Part shown: piece by piece, positions 1,402 through 64,000 of the stretch
How the letters are laid out: every line of letters starts with the position of its first letter
Position numbering within the stretch: position 1 is the stretch's first letter
Assembly (NCBI GenBank): GCA_008375315.1
Contig: CP032507.1
Coordinates: forward strand, 3,310,071-3,374,070
DNA from: Ectothiorhodospiraceae bacterium BW-2
GTDB lineage: Bacteria; Pseudomonadota; Gammaproteobacteria; Thiohalomonadales; Thiohalomonadaceae
Reading direction: 5' to 3'
DNA: 64,000 bases
The notes under the pieces: model-generated
The model's input: only the letters and a program-made list of their open reading frames with translations
Databases searched by the model: none
What the model was told of the DNA's origin: nothing
Position numbers and translations under genes: made by a program

Positions 1402-1409
1402 GTAACCCC

Positions 1410-38628: not shown

Positions 38629-38732
38629 GGTGTTTCATGTTTTGGCTACCGTTTTAGAGTGTACAAAAGTATTAGGAGCATGGGCTGATTGCCCGACATT
38701 TAGCGCTGTTAATTCAATCTGACCATGCGGCT
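38629..38732. repeat. direct repeat A (104 bp), downstream flank of the adhesin module
   Basis: Gapless 104-base match to 59406-59509 with 10 mismatches (94/104). On the minus strand it contains the same ATG-AAA-CAC start as the sensor kinase, but the frame here stops after five codons (MKHLS). It lies immediately after the TPR/GT41 stop. It therefore looks like a relic of a second kinase promoter and start. Confidence 0.9.
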
Positions 38733-40494
38733 AGTTCAGTATGTTCTGATGATCGCAATATTGATGCCACATGCGCAATAGCCCCCGCTCAAAATCACGG
38801 GTAAACTGCCGAGCATCACAGAGTGGTGAATCGAGCAGCCGCTGGCGCAAATCCCGTCTTAGTTCAGATAACTGTTCCAGATGCCCACTGTACCACACTA
38901 CTTTTTCGACATACGCAGCCTCCGAGTCAACCACCCAGTCCCCTAATCCCGCATTGACCAAGTGGCTGGCCGCATGACGACCAGCAAAGGTTGGTCTGGG
39001 CAGGGTCACGGTGGGCACCCCCATCCAGAGGGCTTCAATGGTTGTCAAACCACCGGAGTAGGGCCACGGATCAAGTGCAAGATCAATTTTGCCATAGGTA
39101 TTCAATAGCTCTGCATGCGGTGAAAAGGTCTCAAAGATAATCCGTTCACTCGCCACCCCCTGTAGTTGAAACCACTGCCGCAGGCGCGTTTTAACAACAG
39201 AGCTACAATAAGCCTTGCCTTTAAGTAAAAGGCGGCTCTGTGGCAGTTGACGCAGAATCTTCGCCCACCATATCACCAGTTTTTGATTAATTTTGGCAGG
39301 ATTATTAAAACAGCCCAAAGTCAACTGTCCGGTTTTCAGCGCCGGTAGTTCGGTCACCGGCGGCGAGATTTGTGGCGGTGAATAGCAGATATAGCTGTGT
39401 GGCATACGGTAAATCTGCTCTGTAAAACCGGCATCGCACCCCTCTGGCGTCTCAACTTCATCACTAATCAGCCAGTCCATCTGTTTAATGCCGGTGGTAT
39501 TAAACAACCCGCCGACCCACTTCACCTGCACCGGTGCCGCCCGCATTACCGCTACCAGCGGTCGCCCCTGCATATGGCCTGCCATGTCAATTAAGATATC
39601 AATCTCATCACGACGAATCTGCGCGGTAATCGCCGCATCGCTTTGGTTTGATAACTCACGCCAAAGGACACAACATTGGCGCAGCCGGGCAGTCATGCGA
39701 TCCGGTTTAGTGCCGAAGCTGTAGCCATAGAGCGCAAACTGTTCACGATTAAGCTGTTCAAACGCCGCTATCGATAGCCACAGTGCCGGATGGGTATGCA
39801 AAGCACCGGATAACAGACCCATCTTTAATGGCCGCTGGTCGGCTGTGGCTGTTTTAGTGATTGGTGGGTAATTGATAAAGTTATTTTCCCGCCACTGGCG
39901 AAATTGAACGGCTAGATCTGTTGCAGTGATATCCGGATGATAATGCATAGCACAGAGCAGATTACTGTGAGCCAGGGTGTAGTTACGCCTTAACTGTAAT
40001 GTCTGCTGCAGCGTGGCGATAGCGGCATCAATATCCCCCCGATCAATCAGCACACTGCCCAGATTATTTCGGGCAGCCGTGTGATTGGGGTTTAACTGCA
40101 ACACCCGCTCAAAGGCGGTTATCGCACCATCCATGTCACCGCTCAGTGCCAGTATATTGCCTCTGTTATAGTGAGCATCGGCATAATCGCTCTGCCCTGC
40201 AATAGCGCGGTCGTAGCAACTTAAAGCGGTCTTCATATCTCCGATCCGCTGATAGTAGTTGCCCCAGCTTAGCAGTAGTGGCGGATAGTCAGGACGCAGT
40301 GCATCGGCTCGCTCAAAAGCATCCAGCGAACTGGCGTAATCGCCTGATTCCAGCGAGAGAAGGGCATGCAGGTGGAACAGGTCAAACTGAATGACCTGCT
40401 TTTCGACCATCTCCCGGGTGATGGCCAGTGCCTGTTGCAATTCACCCTGACGGTAGTGATTTACCGCTCGGGTAAACTGCGCTGTATCAAACAT
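38731..40494 (-). CDS. TPR / GT41 O-GlcNAc transferase-like protein
   Basis: 587 residues. The N-terminus (about 1-200) has roughly five TPR units, for example ALSCYDRAIAGQSDYADAHY and AITAFERVLQLNPNHTAA. The C-terminal GT41 domain (about 220-580) carries GALHTHPALWLSI, DMAGHMQGRPL, APVQVKWVGG, TTGIKQMDWLISDE, GCFNNPAKINQKLV, PYSGGLTTIEALWMGVPTVT and FAGRHAASH, matching the SPINDLY/OGT catalytic and UDP-binding regions. Bacterial relatives glycosylate Ser/Thr of surface proteins. It begins 29 bases after the giant adhesin stop on the same strand, so that protein is the natural candidate substrate. Its ribosome binding site is weak, suggesting coupling or low expression. Confidence 0.9.
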   Translation of the reverse strand: MFDTAQFTRAVNHYRQGELQQALAITREMVEKQVIQFDLFHLHALLSLESGDYASSLDAFERADALRPDYPPLLLSWGNYYQRIGDMKTALSCYDRAIAGQSDYADAHYNRGNILALSGDMDGAITAFERVLQLNPNHTAARNNLGSVLIDRGDIDAAIATLQQTLQLRRNYTLAHSNLLCAMHYHPDITATDLAVQFRQWRENNFINYPPITKTATADQRPLKMGLLSGALHTHPALWLSIAAFEQLNREQFALYGYSFGTKPDRMTARLRQCCVLWRELSNQSDAAITAQIRRDEIDILIDMAGHMQGRPLVAVMRAAPVQVKWVGGLFNTTGIKQMDWLISDEVETPEGCDAGFTEQIYRMPHSYICYSPPQISPPVTELPALKTGQLTLGCFNNPAKINQKLVIWWAKILRQLPQSRLLLKGKAYCSSVVKTRLRQWFQLQGVASERIIFETFSPHAELLNTYGKIDLALDPWPYSGGLTTIEALWMGVPTVTLPRPTFAGRHAASHLVNAGLGDWVVDSEAAYVEKVVWYSGHLEQLSELRRDLRQRLLDSPLCDARQFTRDFERGLLRMWHQYCDHQNILN

Positions 40495-40523: not shown

Positions 40524-43500
40524 CTATACCAGCCCCTGTGAGGTTAAAATACCGTTGGGCATAGTTGTGAGAACAAAATCGTTGAATTTACCAGTGCTAT
40601 AGGTAGTAGGTCTTAGATCTCCAACACTTATATTACCATCCCATAATTTTTCACTACTAGCATAGTTATTTCTGGCAATAGACCCAACACCCAGATATAT
40701 ATATAGCTGAACCGTTCGACTGTTCAAAGAATAATTAAGCTCCAATAAACCTGCACTTTTATAATAAAAAGTTACTTCTTGAGCCGGATTGGAATTATTT
40801 TTGATTACCGACCCGCTGCCAACAAATATAACTTTGTCATCAGTTCCCAAATTATTCGCACTGCTCCATGTCCCCCAGGTACCGGGTCCACTGCCTGCTG
40901 TTGAGAGTGTTGAAGAATCACTATCCATCCGGATATAGATGGTATAACTGGTATTAGCATCAAAAGTGCGGCTCGAATGGCTCGATGAGACTCCCTGAAT
41001 CAGATCAAACACCACAATACTGGTATCAGGATTGACATAGCCATCACCTGTGGCAGCATTACCGTTCGAATCCCGGCTAAAGCCGGCAGTTACTGTTAGT
41101 TTATGCCCATCGCTAAATGGAGCATAATTAGGATTTGAAGTATCAAAGCCGTTAAAAAAAGATTCCAGTCCTGAGCCACAGGCATTCGCTGCGTCATCGG
41201 TAAAAGTAATTTCCAAACTGGTATCACTAACCGCCTTAACACTTAAAATATCATCGCCTGTATTATTTCCTAGATCGCCAGAACCAAAGTCGTAGCTGGT
41301 ATTATTATTAAATGTCCAAACCAGCTTACTCCAGTCGAGCCGATCTTTAATATCGGTCGTTGCATCTTCACCGCTCTCCAGCATGGAGTTTATTCCGGTG
41401 CCGGTCAGGGTGAGGGTGTTGCTGGCCATATCGTAACTGACTCCGCTGTAGGTGGTTGTGGGTGGAGTCGTATCTATCGTGACACTGTTGGTCGATACAG
41501 TGCTCAGGTTGCCCGCACTGTCAGTCGTATATACCTTATAATCACCATCAACTAAACCGGCGGCAGCCAGATTGGTATCACTACTGGCGGTGCTAATAGT
41601 CACCCAATTCCAGTTATTGTCTGAGGCACCGGTAATATCGCTCAGGCTGTTGACCGTGATCGAGTCTTTAACCAAAAAGGCTGTGCCAGCTTCCGTGCTC
41701 TGAACCACCGCATTGCCGCTGCTACCGATGGTAGCCGCAGTGACGCTGGCGGTGGGTGCTGTATTATCAATAGTCAACCCATCGGTTGTAATACCTAAAT
41801 TACCGGCAGCATCAACAAGATAGAGTTTGTAATCACCTGCTTCGAGTCCACTTAATGTCAAATCAGTAAATGTGTTGGCGCTGGTAATGCTGACGCTATT
41901 GATCTGGCTGTCGGTGACACCAGAAAAATCTGCTGCACTATTAATGGTGACGCTGTCTTTGATCAGATAAGCCATACCTGGGCCGTCGCTTTGTACTTGA
42001 ACTGTTTTACTGTTGTTAAATACCGTCGAGGCGTCAAATTGTCTGACATAAACACTGTCATCACCGCCGCTATCATCACCACGCGAGGTGATTGCAAACT
42101 GACTGCCTATCCCTACTGCAGCAATTTCAGGATATCCTTTTGATGCAATCTCATTGTTTCCAACCTCGACTAATGTAACACTGCCGGATTTGGAACCATC
42201 AGCATTAAATTGCTGCAGATAGACCTGATCATCATTATTCGCATCATCGCCGAGCCAGGTGACGACATAGCCGCTGTTTGCCAGTGCTGTAATCTGTGGG
42301 TTTTCATCTCTGTCATCTGTCACTCCTATCGCTTCAAGTTGAACGATTGAATGATTCGTAGTACTGCCATCCGCATTGAAGTGCTGGACAAAGATACTAT
42401 CATCACCATCACTGTCCTTTCCAGGCCAGGTCACCACAAATTCTCCGCTACTACCTATTGCGGCTATTTTTGCTTGCATATCAGATTGATCTGTTACACC
42501 TGTTGCTTCCAACAATACCTCTGTACCATTTTTTGTACCATCGGCATTAAAACGCTGTACAAAGACACTCCTGTCACCATCAGCATCAACACCATCCCAA
42601 ACCACGACATATTCACCATTGCTACCTACAGCACTCACCTGCGGGCGTAAGTCATCTCCAGATAGTTGTCCTGTCGGCTCCAGCTTGACCTGATCTTTGC
42701 CCGTAATAGTTCCGTCGGCATTAAAATGCTGTACATAGATGCTTTCATCAGAACCATCATTACCCACCCAGGTCACCACATACTCACCGCTAATTCCGAC
42801 ACTGGTCACTTGAGGATCTTTGTCACCTCTATCTGTAACGCCAGTCGGTTCAAGTTTAACTTGAGCTTTGCCCGTGATTGTACCGTCAGCATTAAAATGC
42901 TGCACATAGATACTGTCATCATAATCACCAGGACCATCATTACCCACCCAGGTCACCACATACTCACCGCTAATTCCGACACTGGTCACTTGAGGAGCTT
43001 CGTCACCTCTATCTGTAACGCCAGTCGATTCAAGTTTAACTTGAGCTTTACCCGTGATTGTACCGTCAGCATTAAAATGCTGCACATAGATACTGTCATC
43101 ATAATCATCAGGACCATCATTGCCCACCCAGGTCACCACATACTCACCGCTAATTCCGACACTGGTCACTTGAGGTGCACTGTCACCTCCATCTGTAACG
43201 CCAGTCGATTCAAGTTTAACTTGAGCTTTACCCGTGATTGTACCGTCAGTATTAAAATGCTGCACATAGATACTGTCATCATAATCATCAGGACCATCAC
43301 CGCCTGTCCAGGTCACCACATACTCACCATTGCTGCCAATTGCAGATATTTGAGGATTTCTATCATCCATGTTTGTAACACCGCTCGCTTCCAGCGTCAC
43401 AAAGGCTGTCGTCGATACAACATTGCCGTCGGGGGCGGTTGTATCAATGGTGACATCGGCGGCACCATCGGTAGAAAACTCACCAATATTGCCAAAAGCG

Positions 43501-46500
43501 TCGGTAATATTGGCGCGGAAGTTATAGCTGGTGCCTGCGGTCAGAGTCGGTGTGTCGATATCGACATAGCCGTTGCTGATATCGGTGCTGGTCAGGGTTA
43601 CTGCCGTACCCAGTGCTGAGAAACCGTCATAGAGCTGTACTGAATCGCCACTGAGGGCGTTGGTACTATCCAGACTGACCCGGACGGTGAGTATGGTATC
43701 GTCAGAGATACCGTCATCAGCAACTGTGCCGGTGACACTCCCCTGATCGTCGGTAACAGCACTGATGGTCGGTGCATTGGGTGGCGTGTGGTCAACGGTC
43801 ACGCTGGTACCTACCGTACCGATATTACCCGCCGCATCGACCAGATAGAGGGTATAGTTGCCCTCTTCCAGACCGGTCAACGGCAGATCGGTATCGGTAT
43901 TGGCGCTGGTAATGGCCACTGTGTTCATCTGGCTATCAGGAGCACCGGTTAAATCTGTCACACTATTAACAGTAATCGTGTCCTTCACCAGATAGGCGGT
44001 TGCCGCTTCGCTGCTCTGCGCCCGCACCATGCCATCGATAAAGAACTGCTTGACGAAGATACTGACATCATCATCGCTGTCACGGCCATGCCAGGCAAGA
44101 ACAAAGGCACCGCTATCGCCCAGTGCCAAAACTTCCGGGTACTGATCCGAACCGGTGGTATTACCGGTTGCTTCAAACTGCTGCGTCGGGCCGGCAGTGG
44201 TGCCATCAGCATTAAAGGCTTGCAGAAAGATGCTCTCGTCGCCTTCCTCATCATAATCATACCAGGTCACTAAATAGCGACCGGAATCCCCCAGCGCGGC
44301 AATTTTAGGTTTCGCTCCATTCCCGGAGTCGGGATTATTTATCGACTCCAGTTTTACCGTAGTAAATCCATCGGTGGTGCCACTGGCGTTAAACTGCTGT
44401 ACAAAGATATCGTAGCTGTAATTAGAATCCATTCCTACCCAGGTAGCAACATACTGACCACTGCTGCCAACAGCGGCAATTTGTACATCTCTGTCATTAC
44501 TGTGAGAATTTAGTTGCACCGGCGTATAGCCAGTAATGGTGCCATTAGCATCAAATTGCTGTACAAAGATACTGTCTCGATTGTCACTATTCTGACCTTT
44601 CCAGGCGACGACATAGCCGCCATTAAAATCAAGCGCAGTGACTTGAGAATGCTCGTCTCCACCAGTCGTATTACCCGTACCCTCTAGCTTCACCGGTGTG
44701 TCTCCGGTCCGGGTACCGTCGGCATTAAACTGCTGCACATAGATACTGTAGTCAGTATCAGGATAAATCGTTCCGTCCAAACCCGTCCAGGTTACCACAT
44801 AGCCACCAGAATTCAGTGTGGTAATCTGTTGATATTGATCCCATGAACCATGAGCCTCCAGTATCACCGGTGTGTCATTTTTAACTGTGCCGTTCGCATT
44901 AAATTGTTGCACAAAAATGCTTCTATCACTGGATGTGCTACTGTTTTGGCCACGCCAAATCACCACATACTCACCACTACTACCTAATGAGGTAATTTGC
45001 GGCTCGTCATCCTCTCCGGCAGTGTATCCGGTTGCCTCCAGTTGTACTGGGTCATAGCCGGTCGTGGTGCCATCCGCATTAAACTGCTGCACGAATACAC
45101 TGGTGTCGTTGTCACCACTATCGTCCAAACCGGACCAAGTCACCACATAACCGCCACTTTCGAGAGCAGTGATTTTGGGACGGTAATCATAGCTATCGGT
45201 AACCCCTATCCCGTCAAGCTGTACCGGCGAATAACCGGTTGTTGTTCCGTCCGCATTAAACTGCTGTACATAGATGCTCTTTAGAGGATAACTTCCGTAT
45301 TCACCTTCCCACGCCACCACATAGCCGCCGTCGCTGCCGACTGACTCAAGGGCAACATATCTGTCCTCACCCGTTGTATAACCGGTAGCCTCCAGTTGAA
45401 TCGTAGGGAAAGTAACCAGATCACTGACGCTGCCGGTGGGGCTGTTGCCATCAATACTTTCGCCCGCCAGTGTGACACTGGTGGTGGCACTGCTGGCATT
45501 GCCAGCCGCATCGGTTAAAGTGATATTGGTGGTGACACTGCCGGCATCGGCCACATCACTATCCCCCTCGACCGCGGTGTAGGTCGCACTGTAGGTGCCA
45601 TCATTATTGTCGGTTATTCCGGTCAGGGTCTGGCCGTTAAAGGTGCCGGCCAGTGTCAGGCCGGTTTCATTACTGCCTGCGGTAACGGTAATTGTTATGG
45701 CATCACCAATTTTGTATGTACCATCGGCTACCGAGACACTGTTAATGGTCGGTGCGGTCTCATCAAAGCTGACGCTGCTGCTGTCGGTGGTGGCGGTAAC
45801 TTGGGTCATGGCGTTACCGGCGGCATCGACCGCATCAATGGTAAAGCTCACCGCCCCTTCGGTATCACCCGCTTGCAGGGTGTAGCTGGCGGTGTAGGTG
45901 TTACCGCTGGTGTTGGTCGCTGTGACGCTGTTGCCACCAAGGGTCACTGTCGGTGTGCCACTGTGGCTGCCGTCGGTGGTGAAACTTAAGGTCACCGTAT
46001 CGCCGACTTTGGCCAGGGTGGTGTCGCTGTTATCGGAGGCGATGCTGACGGCGGTTAAGGCCGGTGCGGTCTCATCAAAGCTGACGCTGCTGCTGTCGGT
46101 GGTGGCGGTAACTTGGGTCATGGCGTTACCGGCGGCATCGACCGCATCAATGCTGAAGCTCACCGCCCCTTCGGTATCACCGGCTTGCAGGGTGTAGCTG
46201 GCGGTGTAGGTGTTACCGCTGGTGTTGGTCGCTGTGACGCCGTTGCCACCAAGGGTCACTGTCGGTGTGCCACTGTGGCTGCCGTCGGTGGTAAAGCTGA
46301 GGGTCACGGTATCGCCCGTTTTGGCCAGGGCGGTGTCGCTGTTATCCGAGGCGATGCTGACGGCGGTTAAGGCCGGTGCGGTGGTGTCAAAGCTGACGCT
46401 GCTGCTGTCGGTGGTGGCGGTAACTTGGGTCATGGCGTTACCGGCGGCATCGACCGCATCAATGGTAAAGCTCACCGCCCCTTCGGTATCACCCGCTTGC

Positions 46501-49500
46501 AGGGTGTAGCTGGCGGTGTAGGTGTTACCGCTGGTGTTGGTCGCTGTGACGCTGTTGCCACCAAGAGTCACTGTCGGTGTGCCACTGTGGCTGCCGTCGG
46601 TGGTGAAACTTAAGGTCACGGTATCACCCACTTTGGCTAAGGTGGTGTCACTGTTATCGGAGGCGATGCTGACGGCGGTTAAGGCCGGTGCGGTCTCATC
46701 AAAGCTGACGCTGCTGCTGTCGGTGGTGGCGGTAACTTGGGTCATGGCGTTACCGGCGGCATCGACCGCATCAATGGTAAAACTGAGTGTCCCTTCGATA
46801 TCACCGGCTTGCAGGGTGTAGCTGGCGGTGTAGGTGTTACCGCTGGTGTTGGTCGCTGTGACGCTGTTGCCACCAAGGGTCACTGTCGGTGTGCCACTGT
46901 GGCTGCCGTCGGTGGTGAAACTTAAGGTCACCGTATCGCCGACTTTGGCCAAGGTGGTGTCGCTGTTATCGGAGGCGATGCTGACGGCGGTTAAGGCCGG
47001 TGCGGTCTCATCAAAGCTGACGCTGCTGCTGTCGGTGGTGGCGGTAACTTGGGTCATGGCGTTACCGGCGGCATCGACCGCATCAATGGTAAAGCTCACC
47101 GCCCCTTCGGTATCACCGGCTTGCAGGGTGTAGCTGGCGGTGTAGGTGTTACCGCTGGTGTTGGTCGCTGTGACGCCGTTGCCACCAAGGGTCACTGTCG
47201 GTGTGCCACTGTGGCTGCCGTCGGTGGTGAAACTTAAGGTCACCGTATCGCCGACTTTGGCTAAGGTGGTGTCGCTGTTATCGGAGGCGATGCTGACGGC
47301 GGTTAAGGCCGGTGCGGTCTCATCAAAGCTGACGCTGCTGCTGTCGGTGGTGGCGGTAACTTGGGTCATGGCGTTACCGGCGGCATCGACCGCATCAATG
47401 GTAAAACTCACCGCCCCTTCGGTATCACCGGCTTGCAGGGTGTAGCTGGCGGTGTAGGTGTTACCGCTGGTGTTGGTCGCTGTGACGCTGTTGCCACCAA
47501 GGGTCACTGTCGGTGTGCCACTGTGGCTGCCGTCGGTGGTGAAGCTGAGGGTCACGGTATCGCCCGTTTTGGCCAGGGCGGTGTCGCTGTTATCGGAGGC
47601 GATGCTGACGGCGGTTAAGGCCGGTGCGGTCTCATCAAAGCTGACGCTGCTGCTGTCGGTGGTGGCGGTAACTTGGGTCATGGCGTTACCGGCGGCATCG
47701 ACCGCATCAATGGTAAAGCTCACCGCCCCTTCGGTATCACCGGCTTGCAGGGTGTAGCTGGCGGTGTAGGTGTTACCGCTGGTGTTGGTCGCTGTGACGC
47801 CGTTGCCACCAAGGGTCACTGTCGGTGTGCCACTGTGGCTGCCGTCGGTGGTGAAGCTGAGGGTCACGGTATCGCCCGTTTTGGCCAAGGTGGTGTCGCT
47901 GTTATCGGAGGCGATGCTGACGGCGGTTAAGGCCGGTGCGGTCTCATCAAAGCTGACGCTGCTGCTGTCGGTGGTGGCGGTAACTTGGGTCATGGCGTTA
48001 CCGGCGGCATCGACCGCATCAATGGTAAACTCACCGCCCCTTCGGTATCACCGGCTTGCAGGGTGTAGCTGGCGGTGTAGGTGTTACCGCTGGTGTTGGT
48101 CACTGTGACGCCGTTGCCACCAAGGGTCACTATCGGTGTGCCGCTGTGGCTGCCGTCGGTGGTGAAACTTAAGGTCACGGTATCACCCACTTTGGCTAAG
48201 GTGGTGTCGCTGTTATCGGAGGCGATGCTGACGGCGGTTAAGGCCGGTGCGGTGGTGTCAAAGCTGACGCTGCTGCTGTCGGTGGTGGCGGTAACTTGGG
48301 TCATGGCGTTACCGGCGGCATCGACCGCATCAATGGTAAAGCTCACCGCCCCTTCGGTATCACCCGCTTGCAGGGTGTAGCTGGCGGTGTAGGTGTTACC
48401 GCTGGTGTTGGTCGCTGTGACGCTGTTGCCACCAAGGTCACTGTCGGTGTGCCACTGTGGCTGCCGTCGGTGGTGAAACTTAAGGTCACCGTATCGCCGA
48501 CTTTGGCTAAGGTGGTGTCGCTGTTATCGGAGGCGATGCTGACGGCGGTTAAGGCCGGTGCGGTCTCATCAAAGCTGACGCTGCTGCTGTCGGTGGTGGC
48601 GGTAACTTGGGTCATGGCGTTACCGGCGGCATCGACCGCATCAATGGTAAAGCTGAGTCGGCCCTTCGGTATCACCGGCTTGCAGGGTGTAGCTGGCGGT
48701 GTAGGTGTTACCGCTGGTGTTGGTCGCTGTGACGCTGTTGCCGCCAAGGGTCACTGTCGGTGTGCCACTGTGGCTGCCGTCGGTGGTGAAACTTAAGGTC
48801 ACGGTATCGCCCGTTTTGGCCAAGGCGGTGTCGCTGTTATCGGAGGCGATGCTGACGGCGGTTAAGGCCGGTGCGGTGGTGTCAAAGCTGACGCTGCTGC
48901 TGTCGGTGGTGGCGGTAACTTGGGTCATGGCGTTACCGGCGGCATCGACCGCATCAATGGTAAAGCTCACCGCCCCTTCGGTATCACCCGCTTGCAGGGT
49001 GTAGCTGGCGGTGTAGGTGTTACCGCTGGTGTTGGTCACTGTGACGCCGTTGCCACCAAGGGTCACTGTCGGTGTGCCACTGTGGCTGCCGTCGGTGGTG
49101 AAACTTAAGGTCACCGTATCGCCGACTTTGGCCAGGGTGGTGTCGCTGTTATCGGAGGCGATGCTGACGGCGGTTAAGGCCGGTGCGGTCTCATCAAAGC
49201 TGACGCTGCTGCTGTCGGTGGTGGCGGTAACTTGGGTCATGGCGTTACCGGCGGCATCGACCGCATCAATGGTGAAGCTCACCGCCCCTTCGGTATCACC
49301 GGCTTGCAGGGTGTAGCTGGCGGTGTAGGTGTTACCGCTGGTGTTGGTCGCTGTGACGCCGTTGCCGCCAAGGGTCACTGTCGGTGTGCCACTGTGGCTG
49401 CCGTCGGTGGTAAAGCTGAGGGTCACGGTATCGCCCGTTTTGGCCAGGGCGGTGTCGCTGTTATCGGAGGCGATGCTGACGGCGGTTAAGGCCGGTGCGG

Positions 49501-52500
49501 TGGTGTCAAAGCTGACGCTGCTGCTGTCGGTGGTGGCGGTAACTTGGGTCATGGCGTTACCGGCGGCATCGACCGCATCAATGGTAAAGCTCACCGCCCC
49601 TTCGGTATCACCCGCTTGCAGGGTGTAGCTGGCGGTGTAGGTGTTACCGCTGGTGTTGGTCGCTGTGACGCTGTTGCCACCAAGGGTCACTGTCGGTGTG
49701 CCACTGTGGCTGCCGTCGGTGGTGAAACTTAAGGTCACCGTATCGCCGACTTTGGCTAAGGTGGTGTCGCTGTTATCGGAGGCGATGCTGACGGCGGTTA
49801 AGGCCGGTGCGGTCTCATCAAAGCTGACGCTGCTGCTGTCGGTGGTGGCGGTAACTTGGGTCATGGCGTTACCGGCGGCATCGACCGCATCAATGGTAAA
49901 ACTGAGTGTCCCTTCGATATCACCGGCTTGCAGGGTGTAGCTGGCGGTGTAGGTGTTACCGCTGGTGTTGGTCGCTGTGACGCTGTTGCCACCAAGGGTC
50001 ACTGTCGGTGTGCCACTGTGGCTGCCGTCGGTGGTGAAAGCTGAGGGTCACGGTATCGCCCGTTTTGGCCAGGGTGGTGTCGCTGTTATCGGAGGCGATG
50101 CTGACGGCGGTTAAGGCCGGTGCGGTCTCATCAAAGCTGACGCTGCTGCTGTCGGTGGTGGCGGTAACTTGGGTCATGGCGTTACCAGCGGCATCGACCG
50201 CATCAATGGTAAAACTCACCGCCCCTTCGGTATCACCGGCTTGCAGGGTGTAGCTGGCGGTGTAGGTGTTACCGCTGGTGTTGGTCACTGTGACGCCGTT
50301 GCCGCCAAGGGTCACTGTCGGTGTGCCACTGTGGCTGCCGTCGGTGGTAAAGCTGAGGGTCACGGTATCACCCGTTTTGGCCAAGGTGGTGTCACTGTTA
50401 TCGGAGGCGATGCTGACGGCGGTTAAGGCCGGTGCGGTCTCATCAAAGCTGACGCTGCTGCTGTCGGTGGTGGCGGTAACTTGGGTCATGGCGTTACCAG
50501 CGGCATCGACCGCATCAATGGTAAAACTCACCGCCCCTTCGGTATCACCGGCTTGCAGGGTGTAGCTGGCGGTGTAGGTGTTACCGCTGGTGTTGGTCGC
50601 TGTGACGCCGTTGCCACCAAGGGTCACTGTCGGTGTGCCGCTGTGGCTGCCGTCGGTGGTGAAACTTAAGGTCACGGTATCCCCACTTTGGCTAAGGTGG
50701 TGTCGCTGTTATCGGAGGCGATGCTGACGGCGGTTAAGGCCGGTGCGGTGTCGTCAAAGCTGACGCTGCTGCTGTCGGTGGTGGCGGTAACTTGGGTCAT
50801 GGCGTTACCGGCGGCATCGACCGCATCAATGGTAAAGCTCACCGCCCCTTCGGTATCACCCGCTTGCAGGGTGTAGCTGGCGGTGTAGGTGTTACCGCTG
50901 GTGTTGGTCGCTGTGACGCTGTTGCCACCAAGGGTCACTGTCGGTGTGCCACTGTGGCTGCCGTCGGTGGTGAAACTTAAGGTCACCGTATCGCCGACTT
51001 TGGCCAGGGTGGTGTCGCTGTTATCGGAGGCGATGCTGACGGCGGTTAAGGCCGGTGCGGTCTCATCAAAGCTGACGCTGCTGCTGTCGGTGGTGGCGGT
51101 AACTTGGGTCATGGCGTTACCGGCGGCATCGACCGCATCAATGGTGAAGCTCACCGCCCCTTCGGTATCACCGGCTTGCAGGGTGTAGCTGGCGGTGTAG
51201 GTGTTACCGCTGGTGTTGGTCGCTGTGACGCCGTTGCCACCAAGGGTCACTGTCGGTGTGCCACTGTGGCTGCCGTCGGTGGTAAAGCTGAGGGTCACGG
51301 TATCGCCCGTTTTGGCCAGGGCGGTGTCGCTGTTATCGGAGGCGATGCTGACGGCGGTTAAGGCCGGTGCGGTGGTGTCAAAGCTGACGCTGCTGCTGTC
51401 GGTGGTGGCGGTAACTTGGGTCATGGCGTTACCGGCGGCATCGACCGCATCAATGGTAAAGCTCACCGCCCCTTCGGTATCACCCGCTTGCAGGGTGTAG
51501 CTGGCGGTGTAGGTGTTACCGCTGGTGTTGGTCGCTGTGACGCTGTTGCCACCAAGGGTCACTGTCGGTGTGCCACTGTGGCTGCCGTCGGTGGTGAAAC
51601 TTAAGGTCACCGTATCGCCGACTTTGGCTAAGGTGGTGTCGCTGTTATCGGAGGCGATGCTGACGGCGGTTAAGGCCGGTGCGGTCTCATCAAAGCTGAC
51701 GCTGCTGCTGTCGGTGGTGGCGGTAACTTGGGTCATGGCGTTACCGGCGGCATCGACCGCATCAATGGTAAAACTGAGTGTCCCTTCGATATCACCCGCT
51801 TGCAGGGTGTAGCTGGCGGTGTAGGTGTTACCGCTGGTGTTGGTCGCTGTGACGCTGTTGCCGCCAAGGGTCACTGTCGGTGTGCCACTGTGGCTGCCGT
51901 CGGTGGTGAAACTTAAGGTCACGGTATCACCCGTTTTGGCCAAGGCGGTGTCGCTGTTATCGGAGGCGATGCTGACGGCGGTTAAGGCCGGTGCGGTGGT
52001 GTCAAAGCTGACGCTGCTGCTGTCGGTGGTGGCGGTAACTTGGGTCATGGCGTTACCGGCGGCATCGACCGCATCAATGGTAAAGCTCACCGCCCCTTCG
52101 GTATCACCCGCTTGCAGGGTGTAGCTGGCGGTGTAGGTGTTACCGCTGGTGTTGGTCACTGTGACGCCGTTGCCGCCAAGGGTCACTGTCGGTGTGCCAC
52201 TGTGGCTGCCGTCGGTGGTGAAACTTAAGGTCACCGTATCGCCGACTTTGGCCAGGGTGGTGTCGCTGTTATCGGAGGCGATGCTGACGGCGGTTAAGGC
52301 CGGTGCGGTCTCATCAAAGCTGACGCTGCTGCTGTCGGTGGTGGCGGTAACTTGGGTCATGGCGTTACCGGCGGCATCGACCGCATCAATGCTGAAGCTC
52401 ACCGCCCCTTCGGTATCACCGGCTTGCAGGGTGTAGCTGGCGGTGTAGGTGTTACCGCTGGTGTTGGTCGCTGTGACGCCGTTGCCACCAAGGGTCACTG

Positions 52501-55500
52501 TCGGTGTGCCACTGTGGCTGCCGTCGGTGGTAAAGCTGAGGGTCACGGTATCGCCCGTTTTGGCCAGGGCGGTGTCGCTGTTATCGAGGCGATGCTGACG
52601 GCGGTTAAGGCCGGTGCGGTGGTGTCAAAGCTGACGCTGCTGCTGTCGGTGGTGGCGGTAACTTGGGTCATGGCGTTACCGGCGGCATCGACCGCATCAA
52701 TGGTAAAGCTCACCGCCCCTTCGGTATCACCCGCTTGCAGGGTGTAGCTGGCGGTGTAGGTGTTACCGCTGGTGTTGGTCGCTGTGACGCTGTTGCCACC
52801 AAGAGTCACTGTCGGTGTGCCACTGTGGCTGCCGTCGGTGGTGAAACTTAAGGTCACCGTATCGCCGACTTTGGCTAAGGTGGTGTCGCTGTTATCGGAG
52901 GCGATGCTGACGGCGGTTAAGGCCGGTGCGGTCTCATCAAAGCTGACGCTGCTGCTGTCGGTGGTGGCGGTAACTTGGGTCATGGCGTTACCGGCGGCAT
53001 CGACCGCATCAATGGTAAAACTGAGTGTCCCTTCGATATCACCGGCCTGCAGGGTGTAGCTGGCGGTGTAGGTGTTACCGCTGGTGTTGGTCGCTGTGAC
53101 GCTGTTGCCACCAAGGGTCACTGTCGGTGTGCCACTGTGGCTGCCGTCGGTAGTGAAGCTGAGGGTCACGGTATCGCCCGTTTTGGCCAGGGCGGTGTCG
53201 CTGTTATCGGAGGCGATGCTGACGGCGGTTAAGGCCGGTGCGGTCTCATCAAAGCTGACGCTGCTGCTGTCGGTGGTGGCGGTAACTTGGGTCATGGCGT
53301 TACCAGCGGCATCGTTCGCATCAATGGTAAAACTCACCGCCCCTTCGGTATCACCGGCTTGCAGGGTGTAGCTGGCGGTGTAGGTGTTACCGCTGGTGTT
53401 GGTCACTGTGACGCCGTTGCCACCAAGGGTCACTATCGGTGTGCCGCTGTGGCTGCCGTCGGTGGTGAAACTTAAGGTCACGGTATCGCCGACTTTGGCC
53501 TGTGTATTATTGCTGTTATTGGAGGCAATCGACATGTCAGTTAAGATCGGAGCCGTGGTATCCACCACAAGTGTTTGACTGGCGACAGCCGAGCGATTGC
53601 CAGCACTATCTGTGGCCGTGACCGATACGCTGTTATCGCCGTTGCTATTCATCGCTAAGGTACCACTGACCGCAGTGGCGGTAGCGGTATCAATACGCCA
53701 GTTACCGCTGCTGTCGGCAGTGGTGTTGTAGGTTGCACCGGCAATATCGACGGTGACTGTGCTGCCGGCTTCGGCGGTACCACTGATGGTCGGGGTGGTG
53801 ATATTACTTAATGCCGCTGAGCTGATGGTCGGCATATCAGGATTGAGAGTGTCTACAGACTGAACTGATTGAATAGCAGCAACATTACTATTCCCTGCGC
53901 CATCATTAACAACACCGGCGGCTATATCAACCGTCATATCACTGACACTACTGCTATCCGGTGAAACCACCAAGGTGTATTCAGTAGCACTAATAGTCGT
54001 CAAAGTGCCTTTGGTACCCCCATTAACATTCACATCTTCAACCGTAAAGCCACTCACTGCCTCACTGAAGGTAAAGGTATAGGTAACATCACGATTAGTC
54101 GTACCGGCAGTATCATCGGTAATGATCACAGAGGGACGAATAGCGTTTAACACTACAGCTAACTCTGTGTTATTAGCGAGATCATCTGTGGTAAACATAG
54201 CAAGGATCGCATTGCCCCGGTTATCCACATCCTCAGCGGTCATATTCAATACTAAATTCGTTCTGACACTTAACGGCAATCCTTGCTGACTGGCTGCGTC
54301 AAGACTGTCGAGCAACTCTGTAACTGTGGCACTTTGCAATTGAGCAATCACTGTGGTCGGCAGGTTGCCGATAATGTCGGCACTTTTGTTCTCATCAATA
54401 CTGCTAAAGTCGATGGGTAGTGCTTCAATCAGGCTGACCAGGTTGGTCTCATTAACAGTCGCCAACTCACTGCCGCTAAGACGCTCTATCGCCCCAGAGA
54501 CTATCAGGCTTTGGTTGCCGGACAATGCCGTCGGGTCAAGTGTGTTCAGGTTGTTCAGCAGTTCATCGTTGCTGTACATCGCCTCAATAGCGGCTAACCG
54601 GGTCTCGGTCAGCTCAGTTTCAGTCAAGTTCTCTACCAGAGCGTTTTTATTACTCAGGGGGAGCGCGGAGCGGCTGGCAGGCTCCAGAGTATCAAGCAGG
54701 CTAGCGATAGTGTTTGGCGCTAGCTGACTGATAACAGTAGTCGGTATGTTATTTAAAACAAAACTACGCTGTTCATCGGTAAGTTCTGGACTCCCCGCAG
54801 TGATCAACCCTGCCAACACCATCGAATCGATTGTCTGTAGCTGTTCAGCCGTTAATCCTGCTAACTGTTGCCCCAGAGTAACCGAAGGAGGCTCTGTTGG
54901 AGTGGGTGTGACCGGAACAGGGGGTTCAATATTCTGATCTTGATCTGTAGTCTCACCCACATCACCTGTAGCGGGTGTTTCTGCCTGTTCTCCCTCCTCT
55001 TCACCGCCGCCGGTCGGCTCTGACCCAGTGGTACTCTCTCCGTTTGGGGTATCGGTCTGCTCCCCAGAGTTATTGATCGTATCGGCATCAGCATTATCAT
55101 CGCCATCGACATCGCCCAATACTGTGCGAGCCACCTCTGATGACCGATTCAGTTCAGAACTGCTACTTTTGGCAACCACAGCTGCGGTATCACCGCTTTG
55201 AGCACTGTTTTGCACATCATTTTCAATCTCCTCTGCTACAATCTGCACTGCAGCAATCGCTTTTAAGGCATCGAGCCCGGTGGTTGCGGCACTACTCTTT
55301 TCAACAATGGTGCGATTCAGATTAACTGTCGCGGTTGCAGCAGCCGTAACCACCTGCCCAATTTGTTGTTGCTGCACCTCATCTGCCCCGGCTTTAACCG
55401 TTGCACCTTTAAACAGCGTTTCGGTTTGAGTCGTATCGGCCAGATCAATCTGAAATTCAGTATCCACCTGCAGACCGTTAACGATAATATCGGCCATGGT

Positions 55501-56517
55501 GTCGAGTATCGCCTCTTGCCCTGTCGACTTATCACTGGTAATACCACCACCGGTCAATAGTGACGCTCCCTGTCCTAGCGTAGTATTAAGCTGTGCGGCA
55601 ATGCGTTGTGTCACTAACGCTTGCTCGACCTGTTCCGGGGTTGCATCTGCGGCTGTAGTAGTCGCTATCGGGTCGTAGTTTTTAAGCTCTATGGCTTCAT
55701 CTATACTTAAAGAACGCTTAACCATTATCTCAGCGGTAGTTGCATCGACATTATTGCCCGCTTTCATCACCTTGGACACTAAGGTAGTGATCGGCCCGAT
55801 AATAGTTGCCCCCTCCGGAGAGCGGTAGCTACCCTCTACTGCCTTACCGGTTGAGATGTCGATCCCGCCAATTGAGATGAGCTCCCCCCGAATCGGGCTG
55901 CCATCGGCTGTTTCAAGCAGAAAGTCACCTTTATCAACGGTTACGGTGCTTAACTCGCCCTCATCCAGCACCCCATTGCCATTTGCGTCAGCAAAGACGA
56001 TTGCCTCACGCACATAACCATCAATTACTTTCCCTTCATGTCGATTGGGCAAGCTCTCATCAGGCTCGGGCTCAATCACCTCAGACGCACCACTACTGCT
56101 GCTATCACCCCCACTGCCAAGTAGCACTCCCCCCAATCCCAGCGCTCCACCCGCCCAGAGCCAGCCACTGTCAGAATCACGCTCTTCAGTCATCAAAACA
56201 TCGGTTTCCTGTCTTAGCTGCCAGACAATGTCACCATCTGCTGTGGAGTCTTCGGTAGTGATGAGAGTAGTTTCTGTATCGTTTTCCGTGCCCATCAAAG
56301 TCGCTGTAGCCGCTTTTCCCGGTTCGTAGAAACTTTGTAGCAACAGGACAGGGCTACCCTCGACCTCCACAACCAAGTCATCCCCCTCTCGCTTTAACAG
56401 CAATCCTGTAGGTATCTGACCTAACGGTTCAAAGATGAGCTGATAAACCGTACCCATTTGAACGGATACCATTTGTACCTGATCGGTAATTTGAATGGCT
56501 TGACTTTTCGGACTCAT
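40524..56517 (-). CDS. giant repetitive adhesin (about 5,331 aa), frame broken by six 1-base indels in this sequence
   Basis: Start ATG at 56517 with GGAG upstream. Residues 1-70 resemble the BapA/LapA-type N-terminal retention module, followed by a Gly-rich segment (WLWAGGALGLGG, about 119-137) and an EF-hand-like DANGNGVLDEGE loop (about 177-188). Next come a helical region, an acidic/Pro linker (about 480-560), further helices, Ig-like domains, 25 repeats of 104 residues, two sets of eight propeller-like repeats separated by Ig-like domains, and a unique C-terminus. No RTX nonapeptides, LPXTG or autotransporter barrel was found. Six single-base indels, all inside the repeat array, split the frame into seven pieces. 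Correcting them gives exactly 5,332 codons, so sequencing or assembly error is likelier than decay. Type I secretion is assumed, but no ABC/MFP/OMP genes are present. Confidence 0.88.
41990..43415 (-). repeat. propeller-like repeat block B in the adhesin (8 units)
   Basis: Eight units of about 55-60 residues with the pattern LE-x-TGVT, PQVTSVG, GEYVVTW, DDSIYVQHFNADGT. Three to four of them (about 42,780-43,320) are almost identical at DNA level with a 180-base period. Eight consecutive beta-rich units would suit an eight-bladed propeller, but this is inferred from repeat count only. Confidence 0.75.
44015..45405 (-). repeat. propeller-like repeat block A in the adhesin (8 units)
   Basis: Eight divergent units of the same family as block B (YVVTWSG, SIFVQQFNADGTT). 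Their divergence suggests an older block from which B may have been copied. Ig-like domains separate the two blocks. Confidence 0.72.
48027..48030 (-). other. frame-breaking deletion (-1) in the adhesin array
   Basis: GGTAAACTCACC here, where all sister units have GGTAAAACTCACC or GGTAAAGCTCACC; one base is missing in an A-run. Confidence 0.85.
48435..48438 (-). other. frame-breaking deletion (-1) in the adhesin array
   Basis: ACCAAGGTCACTG here versus ACCAAGGGTCACTG in sister units; one G missing from a three-G run. Confidence 0.85.
48648..48664 (-). other. frame-breaking insertion (+1) at a hybrid repeat junction
   Basis: The sequence is AAGCTGAGTCGGCCCTTCGG. It joins the CTGAGT of one repeat variant to the GCCCTTCGG of another with one extra base, matching no other unit. 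It looks like an artificial or recombinational join between variants. Confidence 0.8.
50036..50042 (-). other. frame-breaking insertion (+1) in the adhesin array
   Basis: GGTGAAAGCTGAGG here versus GGTGAAGCTGAGG or GGTAAAGCTGAGG in sister units; one extra A. Confidence 0.83.
50679..50686 (-). other. frame-breaking deletion (-1) in the adhesin array
   Basis: GGTATCCCCACTTTGG here versus GGTATCACCCACTTTGG in sister units; one base missing. Confidence 0.83.
52586..52590 (-). other. frame-breaking deletion (-1) in the adhesin array
   Basis: GTTATCGAGGCGATG here versus GTTATCGGAGGCGATG in sister units; one G missing. Confidence 0.85.
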
Positions 56518-56569
56518 TGGTTTTCTCCGGCTATAATCTGCGGTAACGCTTATTAAAAAATTGCGTTAG

Positions 56570-56640
56570 ATAGTAACCATTTTTATTAACAGAAAAACTC
56601 ACAAACCCTTGCAAACCCTTGCAAAAGCTTGCATTGAACA
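56570..56640 (-). promoter_or_regulatory. putative adhesin promoter with 10-bp direct repeats
   Basis: Four 10-base units in a row (ACAAACCCTT, GCAAACCCTT, GCAAAAGCTT, GCATTGAACA, plus-strand view, 56601-56640) follow CTC at 56598. On the minus strand a -10-like TACTAT lies at 56575-56570, with 22 bases between. The -35 position holds only a T-run, as in activator-dependent promoters. Ten-base direct half-sites suit OmpR/PhoB-type regulators, and such a regulator is encoded next door. Confidence 0.55.
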
Positions 56641-56693
56641 AAACGATGACTATTTTTATAGCAACAGAGCTCGGTTATGCTGCAACACCTGAC

Positions 56694-57425
56694 TCAGCGT
56701 AAATCTTCAACTATCACCGCCTGACTGAATACATAACCTACTCCGCGTACTGTTTTTATCGGTGATTGCTCTACAGCCGGATGATGCTCTGCAACGGTTT
56801 GTTGTATCTTTTGGCGTAAGCGGCTGACACAGACCTCCAGCCGGCGCGGGTCAAAAGCGAGTACATTACCCGGGCTAACTACCGCAATTAGCTCATCACG
56901 GGTGATAGTTTGGCCGGCACTCTGCGCTAAACGCAACACAATCGCCGCTTCCATGCCGGTAAGGGGGATAGATGCGCCTAACGGGCTGACCAGTTCATAC
57001 CCACCCTGTAGTAGCTGCCAACTACCATGGTTTGGCTTTGGCTGCGCATGGCTCACCCGCCGATAGAGCGCGGCAATTTGTGCCGATAGCCTGCGCCAGT
57101 CAACCGGCTTGGCCATAAAGATATCGGCGCCGTGTTGATAGCTTTTCAGGCAGGTCTCCACCTCATCCAGTGCAGTCAGAATAATAATGCCGATGTCCGG
57201 AAAGGTGCTGCGTAACCGCGTGGCGATAGAGAGCCCATCTTCACCCGGCAGACCGATATCGAGTAGTGCAATATCGAAGTTTCGTTGCCTGATGACCTCG
57301 TCCATCGCTTTAGCATCGCTAACCGCAGTGACCGCAATACCATCGGTTTGCAATTGAAAACCGAGATCGTCTCGCAGATCTGCGTTATCTTCGACAAACA
57401 GGAGTTGGATAGGTGTTGGCTTCAT
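56694..57425 (-). CDS. OmpR/PhoB-family response regulator
   Basis: 243 residues. The receiver domain has the acidic pair Glu12-Asp13 (FVEDNADLRDD), phospho-acceptor Asp56 in ALLDIGLPGEDG, the switch Thr in IILTALDEVE and Lys106 in FMAKPVDW. A winged-helix DNA-binding domain follows (about 135-235), ending IKTVRGVGYVFS. The ATG at 57425 is chosen over a TTG 51 bases upstream because family members begin near here and a TATAAT lies just before it. The kinase stop is 58 bases upstream. It is the probable activator of the adhesin gene, 176 bases downstream. Confidence 0.93.
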   Translation of the reverse strand: MKPTPIQLLFVEDNADLRDDLGFQLQTDGIAVTAVSDAKAMDEVIRQRNFDIALLDIGLPGEDGLSIATRLRSTFPDIGIIILTALDEVETCLKSYQHGADIFMAKPVDWRRLSAQIAALYRRVSHAQPKPNHGSWQLLQGGYELVSPLGASIPLTGMEAAIVLRLAQSAGQTITRDELIAVVSPGNVLAFDPRRLEVCVSRLRQKIQQTVAEHHPAVEQSPIKTVRGVGYVFSQAVIVEDLR

Positions 57426-57431
57426 GCCGCT

Positions 57432-57482
57432 ATTATAGAAACTATTGCGCGGTAAAAACCTCACAAAAGCTTGCAATCGGCG
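57432..57482 (-). promoter_or_regulatory. putative internal promoter of the response-regulator gene
   Basis: A perfect minus-strand TATAAT (57437-57432) is preceded by 22 bases and then by the CTCACAAA-N2-CTTGCAA element (57460-57476 plus-strand view), matching the adhesin promoter element in sequence and in distance to the -10. Transcription would begin almost at the ATG, giving a nearly leaderless mRNA. Confidence 0.5.
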
Positions 57483-57483
57483 A

Positions 57484-59415
57484 TTATTTACCGGGCAACC
57501 AGACGCTAAAGCGAATTTTAGCCGATGGCAGATTCTCTACCGTAACCGTTCCCTGATGTTTTTGCGCAATACCCGCAACCAGATAGAGTCCTAAGCCCAT
57601 TCCCGGCTGATTATGGATCTCCGAGCCGCGTTGGTATTTGTGAAAGATAGTCGCCTGGCTCTGCTCCGGAATAGGTTCTCCGGCGTTGGTAATCTGCCAG
57701 ACGATTCCCGCTCTGCTATTGTTGGATTGGTGGCTTATTGCAATATCGATTTGGCTTTTTGGGGTCGAATATTTATGGGCATTATCCAGTAGATTAATTA
57801 GGACTATTCGTATCAAGCGCTGATCAGCCCATATTGGCATAACCGGCTGTTCACAGCGTACATCCACCCGATCTAGCGCGTGTATCCGGTTCAACTCCAC
57901 CACTTCATAAGTCAGCTCGACCAGATCCATTTCACCGAGTTCTAAGGGTAAGAACTCCTCCTGATGCTTCTTTTGCAGCGCCATCTCCATAACCCCATTC
58001 ATCCGTTTCACCGCATTTTGAATCCGATCATAGCGTTTACTGCGATCTTCGGCGCTGTGTTCAATTTTTTCGTCCAATAACTTTAACGACGCATTGGCCG
58101 CATCGATGACTGCTATGGGGGTTTTGATCTCATGGGTCAGCATCGACAACAACTGGCTCTGCTCTTCGCGGTAGATTTTTTCGATGGCTATCTGTCGCTG
58201 CGCATTTAGAGCCTCTTCCATGGTGCGTTTGTGATCTTGTTCCAGTTTTTGATAGTGCAGCATCATCGCAAAGTGGAGGGTAAGTATATGGAACAGATGA
58301 CTTAACATACCGGTGAAGGTGACCGACTCATCAAAGGGTATCAATGCCAGTACACCTAATATATTCATACTTATCAGCAGCACATAAGCCATATGCGATA
58401 CCACCAGCATACGATTCCACAGATAACCTGTCTGCCACAAACGCCACATTGGCCACAAAAATGTCCCTAAGGAGAAGATAGCTGTGAATAACATTATCGG
58501 TGCAAATAGTTGATAATAGCCTAGTGGCGTTGCTATGGCGGTAATCAGGCTTACTGTGGCACCGAACTGATTCACCCGATAGATAAACGGATGATATTTT
58601 CTATACTCATATAAAACCGCAAAAAAGAGATAGGCCGATGCCGCTGACAACGAGATAGAGATGCCCAACAGCAGGTTGGCATATAACGGATTTTCCGGAA
58701 ACAGATATTCCGACGCAAAGCCGTTAATCGCCATCCACTGCACACTGTTTAGTCCTAGATAGACCACATAAATAAGAAATACCGTCCGGCGCGATAGCAG
58801 ATAGTTCGCTGCATTAAACAGCAATACGGTCATCATCAGACTCCAAAAGAGGCCAAACAAAAAATAGCTGTCACGGCTATAGCCGGAAAAGTCATCCGGT
58901 TGCCACAGTCGTATCGATGCCACCATCGTGCTTGAGGTTTGTAGCCGCAGGTAAAAGTGGTGTGTTCCGGGTTCGATAAGCAGCTTAAACACAGTAGCAC
59001 GATAGTCGACCTCTTTGCGCGATTGGGGGACAAAATCGCCACCGGAGCGTTTGCTTAATGCGCCATGTTCATTGAGATGATATAGCTGAATACTATCGAG
59101 ATAGGGCGGAATTACCTCCATCCAGACAGGTTTGTCTATTTGTTCAGGTTGTCGCAGCGAAAAGTGTAACCAGTAAACATGGGGTACATAGCCGACACTG
59201 AGATTGCCGCTCAGGGTTTGGAATTTTCCCTCTGCCTGTCGCTGTTGTATCTGTTTAAATGAGAGCTCGCTGCTGCGGTCAAGATAGGCGGAGAGCTCTC
59301 CCTGATTGAGCTCGATGCGGTTATTGTCGCTAAATTCGAGGGTAAATGGTTCGGCGGCCTGTACTGATTTGAGCAGTAAACCTAGCAAGATGACCAAAGC
59401 GATAGGGTGTTTCAT
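57484..59415 (-). CDS. 7TMR-DISM-type sensor histidine kinase
   Basis: 643 residues. A signal sequence (about 1-20, ending SVQA) is followed by a periplasmic 7TMR-DISMED2-like beta domain (about 25-180; NLSVGYVPHVYWLHFSL). Seven transmembrane helices (about 185-395) and a short coiled coil lead to HisKA with SMLTHEIKTPIAVID (phospho-His near residue 425), and HATPase with LINLLDNAHKYS and GMGLGLYLVAGIA. DISMED2 domains are thought to bind carbohydrates or small ligands, so a glycan cue is possible. The start codon lies inside direct repeat B. It pairs with the response regulator directly downstream. Confidence 0.92.
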   Translation of the reverse strand: MKHPIALVILLGLLLKSVQAAEPFTLEFSDNNRIELNQGELSAYLDRSSELSFKQIQQRQAEGKFQTLSGNLSVGYVPHVYWLHFSLRQPEQIDKPVWMEVIPPYLDSIQLYHLNEHGALSKRSGGDFVPQSRKEVDYRATVFKLLIEPGTHHFYLRLQTSSTMVASIRLWQPDDFSGYSRDSYFLFGLFWSLMMTVLLFNAANYLLSRRTVFLIYVVYLGLNSVQWMAINGFASEYLFPENPLYANLLLGISISLSAASAYLFFAVLYEYRKYHPFIYRVNQFGATVSLITAIATPLGYYQLFAPIMLFTAIFSLGTFLWPMWRLWQTGYLWNRMLVVSHMAYVLLISMNILGVLALIPFDESVTFTGMLSHLFHILTLHFAMMLHYQKLEQDHKRTMEEALNAQRQIAIEKIYREEQSQLLSMLTHEIKTPIAVIDAANASLKLLDEKIEHSAEDRSKRYDRIQNAVKRMNGVMEMALQKKHQEEFLPLELGEMDLVELTYEVVELNRIHALDRVDVRCEQPVMPIWADQRLIRIVLINLLDNAHKYSTPKSQIDIAISHQSNNSRAGIVWQITNAGEPIPEQSQATIFHKYQRGSEIHNQPGMGLGLYLVAGIAQKHQGTVTVENLPSAKIRFSVWLPGK

Positions 59416-63010: not shown

Positions 63011-63149
63011 AAATGGATCTCCTCCTCGCTAAATACCAACTCCCACCCAACCCAAAGCAGGATCAGGCTGTGAATCTCGGCGTGTCCTGCCCGCTCTAAT
63101 ACCCGCTGGTCGTGGCGGTATTTTTGGAGTTGTTCTTTGGCATCGGCTA

Positions 63150-64000
63150 TCAGTTCGGTGCGTTTTTTGGCGTATCATCGCTTTTACTGAGATATTTGAG
63201 TTCAATCAGCCAGGCGTGTTTCATCTCGGGGTATTTGGCATAAAACGGCGTCAGATAGAGGTCGACAAAGCCGCCACCGAGCTCCTGTTCACTCAGGGCA
63301 TAGAACCACGGGTTGAGGTTAAGATAGGCCAGCAGAAATCCCTGCACCATCTTTTCGCCGTTAAGGTAGTCGCGCATCCCCACATGGGCTTTAAGCTGTT
63401 CACTAAGGTGGTCAAAGAAGGCTTGCCACTCCGCTCGCCAGGCAAAAGCGTGGAGCTTTTCACCGAGCTTAAACAGGTCGGGACGGAATAGGCCGACATC
63501 GTCGATGGCATCGCGGATGTAGCTATACATCAGCTGTTTTACCGTCTGGTTAGGCACCACCAGATGAGGTCGTCCTTCGCACTGTTCGGTGCTGTGGGTC
63601 AACAGGCCGAAGTAGTAGAGCAGTGAGACAAAGTTATCGGGGTTGGCGAGCAGTTCAGCCGGAAAGCTGGTTTTAATCGCACTGGTGATGCCGCCCTGAT
63701 TGATAATTTGGTTCAACTGTTCAAAGCTGCCGTTGAGTTTACGGTCGAGCTGGATTAAGTGGCGCAGTTTGCCGTAGTCGGTGCGAATATTGGTGTCGAT
63801 CAGCTCTTTCGGAGGGGTGCCATTGCGGTAGAGGGCTTGCAGGTAATAGAGCGCCATATCGCTGTTGGTGATAGTCTCTTTCACCTCTTCACTAAAACGG
63901 TAGTGGTTGTACCACTGCTGCATCAGCGGTTTATGTTCGGCATAATTTTGTCCGAAGGCGGCAAACAGTTCGTTCAGTTCCGCTTCATTAAAGCCGAGCA
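63150..64000 (-). CDS. AAA-ATPase / PD-(D/E)XK nuclease-like protein, copy 3 (partial, frameshifted C-terminus)
   Basis: The 5' part lies beyond the window end, so the frame is open at 64000. The visible part is nearly identical to copy 2 and keeps GGFVDLYLTPF and HAWLIELKYL. At 63169-63170 one base of the sister run is missing, so the frame stops at 63150 instead of 63007 and loses about 50 C-terminal residues. The out-of-frame remainder (63007-63168) still matches copy 2 closely, so the event is recent or a sequencing error. Confidence 0.85.
   Translation of the reverse strand, partial: LGFNEAELNELFAAFGQNYAEHKPLMQQWYNHYRFSEEVKETITNSDMALYYLQALYRNGTPPKELIDTNIRTDYGKLRHLIQLDRKLNGSFEQLNQIINQGGITSAIKTSFPAELLANPDNFVSLLYYFGLLTHSTEQCEGRPHLVVPNQTVKQLMYSYIRDAIDDVGLFRPDLFKLGEKLHAFAWRAEWQAFFDHLSEQLKAHVGMRDYLNGEKMVQGFLLAYLNLNPWFYALSEQELGGGFVDLYLTPFYAKYPEMKHAWLIELKYLSKSDDTPKNAPN
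63165..63172 (-). other. frameshift site in copy 3
   Basis: TTTTTTGGCGTATC here, versus TTTTTTGGGCGTATC in copy 1 and TTTTTTAGGCGTATC in copy 2; one base deleted next to a T-run. Confidence 0.85.

Follow-up and report, generated by a model that had tools for sequence, protein, structure and literature searches.

The window, a stretch of 64,000 nucleotides from Ectothiorhodospiraceae bacterium BW-2, contains a gene for an OmpR-family response regulator and a gene for a giant adhesin that are preceded by the same short repeats. This raises the question of which protein reads the repeats, and with what effect on the two genes. The repeats are very probably the operator of the adjacent OmpR-family regulator, because on sequence grounds the motif is restricted, within this genome, to the regulator's own promoter and the adhesin promoter, and recurs next to the orthologous regulator of another genus.

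The regulator, its kinase and the shared repeat

The regulator (positions 56694..57425, minus strand) is a protein of 243 amino acids. It contains a receiver domain (PF00072, 6e-21) and a winged-helix Trans_reg_C domain (PF00486, 1.7e-13), both above the cut-off, which agrees with its assignment to the OmpR/PhoB type in an initial annotation of this DNA. The ATG start codon is backed by alignment with the N-termini of relatives. Residues E12, D13, D56, T84 and K106, which belong to the phosphorylation and switch positions, are invariant in the alignment with close relatives. No NCBIfam equivalog for a named subfamily (OmpR, PhoP, ArcA, TorR, PhoB and others) reached its cut-off, the best being OmpR with 121 of 331 bits.

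The regulator gene lies 58 bp downstream of a gene for a 7TMR-DISM sensor histidine kinase of 643 amino acids (57484..59415, minus strand; PF07696, PF07695, PF00512 and PF02518), which carries HisKA and HATPase_c domains. Upstream of the kinase gene, at 59532-63923, are two complete tandem AAA-ATPase_like/PDDEXK_9 genes and a third, shorter PDDEXK_9 gene.

The element CTCACAAA-N2-CTTGCAA had been reported upstream of both the regulator and the adhesin, and it matches exactly at 57460-57476 and 56598-56614 of the plus strand, in the same orientation. Regulator and adhesin are both encoded on the minus strand; on that strand the repeat has a period of 10 bp and its units read TTTGCAAG or TTTGTGAG, with TTTGTGAG closest to the promoter at either gene. 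The predicted operator in the gap between kinase and regulator (57460..57477, minus strand) has two units, ATTGCAAG-CT-TTTGTGAG, with the distal unit ATTGCAAG at 57477-57470 and the proximal unit TTTGTGAG at 57467-57460. The predicted operator 5' of the adhesin gene (56598..56635, minus strand) is the array AATGCAAG-CT-TTTGCAAG-GG-TTTGCAAG-GG-TTTGTGAG. Its units start at 56598, 56608, 56618 and 56628, and the outermost is degenerate (CTTGCATT). The adhesin copy thus comprises four 10-bp units, as the initial annotation had it, and the larger site predicted at the adhesin is borne out as four units against two, the status of putative operator coming from the restriction of the motif and from the repeat in the second genus.

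When the two intergenic regions were compared after dinucleotide shuffling, 23 of 10,000 shuffles gave a match of at least 15 of 17 positions, a figure that covers the match alone, before orientation, spacing and tandem structure are added. For the adhesin region, about 1 in 3,000 shuffles produced a perfect 10-mer tandem offset by 10 bp.

Distribution of the motif

The scan of the genome that had been proposed as a check was done by pattern searches allowing mismatches, not with a weight matrix. Across the 4.07-Mb genome the exact 15/15 element is present only at the regulator and adhesin promoters, and the pattern CTYRCAAA-N2-CTTGCA is likewise confined to these two sites. Allowing up to three mismatches gave 58 matches, against 33 for the reversed control. 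Most of the other matches at this level fall inside open reading frames, and none of them has a good -10 hexamer at 23 bases. At this stringency the predicted regulon is the regulator and the adhesin only. A short cluster of weak TTGCAA repeats was also seen at G000:C1:2404090.

Searches of the sampled family and class turned up no close orthologue of the regulator: apart from the present one, no regulator matched at E 1e-40 or better in the 20 family genomes, nor at 1e-36 in the class (369 genomes). The class sample likewise gave nothing for the kinase at 1e-85; a scan of named genomes returned only distant regulators, with 26-38% identity over partial matches. In genome G002, which belongs to another genus, a counterpart of the kinase is 45-46% identical, and the overlapping regulator gene that adjoins it encodes a protein of 33% identity.

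The pattern TTTGYRAG-N2-TTTGYRAG, with at most one mismatch, has five matches in the 20 family genomes, three of them at the present locus, one in G002 and one in G007; the reversed control gave five scattered matches. The match in G007 was set aside, its neighbours being unrelated genes. The match in G002, TTTGCGAGGGTTTGCGCG, is the only one in that genome and lies between the orthologous regulator gene (upstream) and a gene for a ShlB-type two-partner-secretion transporter (downstream). It is found 32 bases before a perfect TATAAT; the register of units 2 and 3 in the present array would call for 33, a difference of one base that we count against the regulator as reader. Shuffling the G002 region 20,000 times gave a match as good as TTTGCGAGGGTTTGCGCG in 27 cases, and our own estimate of chance occurrence in this 284-bp region, taken from the genome-wide rate of control matches, is about 2e-5. 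The regulators that have the motif, here and in G002, share the recognition-helix pattern R-LE---SRLR----Q, from which the regulators of G011 and G012 differ. On sequence evidence, the G002 repeat and this shared pattern speak most strongly for the repeats being the regulator's operator. Since the motif in G002 precedes a gene for a different surface protein, the two-partner-secretion transporter, it is suggested that the pair of regulator and operator has been conserved and the adhesin under its control exchanged.

Gene order is kept in G011 and G012, but their target regions lack the motif, and we count this against the regulator as reader of the repeats. In G011 (contig C52, 2820-9730, locus L086) the kinase, the regulator and a giant FG-GAP repeat protein follow in order without the motif; in G012 the order is kinase, regulator, small protein. 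The comparison of orthologous promoters proposed with the initial annotation is supportive in part, with a near-identical 10-bp repeat beside the G002 regulator and no motif at G011 and G012, and the comparative support amounts to one informative relative, G002.

A second, distant pair of DISM kinase and OmpR-type regulator lies directly before an adhesin gene on contig C80 of G002 (289-3200, locus L125). The 10-bp repeat TTGTGCTGAAGTGTGCTG upstream of TATAAA at this locus (shuffle P 0.003) is unrelated in sequence; it was rejected as an instance of the present operator and is a parallel only, alike in design but with a motif of its own.

The TTGCAA core of the units is palindromic and could be read by regulators of other families, so that a DNA-binding protein other than the adjacent regulator might use the sites. 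The possibility that TTTGTGAG is a CRP site was given up, as a second CRP-like half-site at the right spacing is absent. This absence, the 10-bp direct spacing typical of dimers of the OmpR family, and the restriction of the motif to this locus and to the orthologous regulator locus in another genus make a different reader very improbable.

Predicted promoters and start sites, and the array hairpin

The regulator promoter has a perfect candidate -10 hexamer, TATAAT (6/6; 57432..57437, minus strand), with no -35-like hexamer, and the predicted +1 is 57425, the A of the ATG. At the adhesin promoter the -10-like hexamer is TACTAT (4/6; 56570..56575, minus strand), with a predicted +1 at about 56563. 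Each hexamer begins exactly 23 bases from the edge of the operator, as the initial annotation had claimed. TACTAT has two competitors in the adhesin leader with the same score of 4/6, AAAAAT (at 14) and GATTAT (at 60), so that the identical spacing gives modest support at the adhesin and strong support at the regulator. Weak 4/6 hexamers also lie exactly 14 bases from the operator edge at both promoters (AAAAAT at 56584 and AATAGT at 57446), which is probably a coincidence.

No sigma-70-like promoter with a -35 element was found in 56400-57600. The proximal unit reaches roughly one base into the -35 region without covering it; a bound protein would therefore sit just upstream of the -35 region or at its edge. 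The missing -35 elements favour activation over repression. The opposite sign, with the regulator repressing both promoters over the -35 region (negative autoregulation) until a signal through the kinase relieves them, is geometrically possible, since a unit ending near -35 could occlude RNA polymerase. We consider such repression unlikely: the lack of a -35-like hexamer at both promoters points to dependence on an activator, and the extra upstream units at the adhesin suit activation better, although neither point is decisive.

The gap of 58 bp between kinase and regulator holds both the operator and TATAAT; in G002, G011 and G012 the two genes overlap by a few bases. No Shine-Dalgarno sequence was found before the regulator ATG. 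As standard -10 spacing puts the +1 on the A of this ATG, the regulator mRNA is predicted to be leaderless as well as autoregulated, the leaderless start being a point that the initial annotation lacked.

The four-unit array can also be read as RNA. At 56600..56633 (minus strand), 61 nucleotides after the stop codon of the regulator gene, it forms a terminator-like hairpin of 14 pairs (-16.4 kcal/mol, z -3.3) followed by T5, the strongest hairpin-plus-T site among the gene ends in the window. The array may thus double as the terminator of the regulator gene, a role absent from the earlier account. It could be argued that the repeats are mainly RNA elements: the array would serve the regulator transcript as an intrinsic terminator or attenuator, and the kinase-side copy, which T5 also follows, would be a weak relative after the kinase gene. 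The kinase-side copy, however, reaches only -2.7 kcal/mol, a fold that does not stand out from shuffles, and the G002 copy lacks a T run and has a z of -0.3. In the array itself only about four of the 14 pairs are G-C. Tandem units with random spacers average -11 kcal/mol, and 6% of them reach the observed energy, owing to the palindromic TTGCAA core; the hairpin is partly a by-product of this core. Moreover, a terminator needs neither strict 10-bp direct spacing nor a fixed distance to a -10 hexamer. A mainly RNA-level function is on these grounds quite improbable. Because tandem TTGCAA units fold anyway, and the kinase-side and G002 copies are not terminator-like, we regard termination as a possible second role of the array and not as its main one.

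Proposed mechanism, known systems and the adhesin

The reading that we consider likely is that the phosphorylated regulator binds the 10-bp units and activates its own promoter and that of the adhesin; binding, phosphorylation dependence, activation, start sites and feedback are here all inferred from sequence. The 7TMR-DISM kinase would phosphorylate the regulator, which would then bind head-to-tail to the units (TTTGCAAG or TTTGTGAG plus 2 bp). With its proximal edge near -35, the bound regulator would activate two promoters that have no -35 element. At the regulator gene the two-unit site would hold one dimer and drive the promoter between kinase and regulator, which would yield the leaderless mRNA and set up positive feedback. 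The four-unit array before the adhesin gene would hold two dimers and drive the adhesin, and it might also serve as a terminator that parts the regulator transcript from the adhesin. A fuller version is a two-component system dedicated to this one giant adhesin, in which the array is both DNA operator and RNA terminator of the regulator transcript and the two-unit copy drives leaderless regulator mRNA inside the kinase-regulator operon; we put this forward as a doubtful but possible extension.

Tandem sites of the OmpR family as such are already known. ArcA of Escherichia coli, an OmpR/PhoB-family protein, recognises head-to-tail direct repeats with two to five units per site, the number varying by promoter (PMC3798270). 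Its dimers bind adjacent units spaced 11 bp centre to centre, in a global regulon of more than 150 sites (PMC3798270). The present sites resemble those of ArcA in having head-to-tail direct repeats whose number differs between promoters, dimers being predicted here. They differ in their spacing of 10 bp, their unrelated unit sequence and their local regulon of two genes.

The PHO box is a direct repeat bound in tandem by the OmpR-family regulator PhoB at promoters without a -35 element (PMC4415409). Its units are 11 nucleotides long and replace the -35 (PMC3413638). The direct repeats described here are likewise found at promoters without a -35, with binding predicted; unlike the PHO box, they have their edge near -35, 23 bases from the -10.

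The tor box is a unit of 10 bp. Several tor boxes precede torCAD, a target of the OmpR-family regulator TorR (PMC9239176). Several repeated boxes before one target are common to both systems, but the unit sequence is different here, and the target function is adhesion rather than TMAO respiration.

In Pseudomonas aeruginosa the two-component system PprAB raises expression of the giant secreted adhesin BapA (PMC3510237). The likeness lies in a two-component system with a giant adhesin as target, control being predicted in the present case. PprB, however, is of the NarL/LuxR type, OmpR-type direct repeats are not part of that system, and gene adjacency differs.

The lambda repressor cI activates its own promoter, PRM. 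The cI mRNA made from PRM is leaderless (PMC4965119). It shares with the regulator mRNA a start at its own AUG and an autoregulated promoter; the proteins are unrelated, and leaderlessness is a prediction here.

Our literature search found no report of this system of kinase, regulator and adhesin, and no earlier description of the operator motif. For an uncharacterised system of the 7TMR-DISM/OmpR type, which appears to be dedicated to surface adhesion, the locus provides a concrete predicted binding motif together with a regulon of two genes and predicted start sites.

The N-terminal part of the giant Ig-repeat adhesin (52543..56517, minus strand; PF19078/PF19077, NF033510) has a good Shine-Dalgarno sequence (GGAG) and leads into a 312-bp repeat present in about 25 copies. 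Its N-terminus resembles adhesins of the BapA type, as read from the translation and not from a database match. The remainder of the adhesin, comprising the repeat array and the C-terminal part (40524..52546, minus strand), is broken in frame by four single-base indels within the array, a feature of the deposited sequence that the initial annotation did not mention. In the region containing them (47990-52560) the spacings are 623, 935, 625 and 1559, which are not multiples of 312. As all four indels sit in near-identical repeats, assembly error seems likelier than decay.

A TPR / Glyco_transf_41 (OGT-like) protein is encoded 29 bp after the adhesin (38731..40494, minus strand; PF13844 and TPR families), and its position makes it a possible glycosyltransferase dedicated to the adhesin. 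About 0.22 Mb from the adhesin, at a locus where the operator motif was not found (G000:C1:3583435-3585507), is a gene for an LssB-type type I secretion ATPase over the TIGR03375 cut-off, a candidate for the adhesin exporter.
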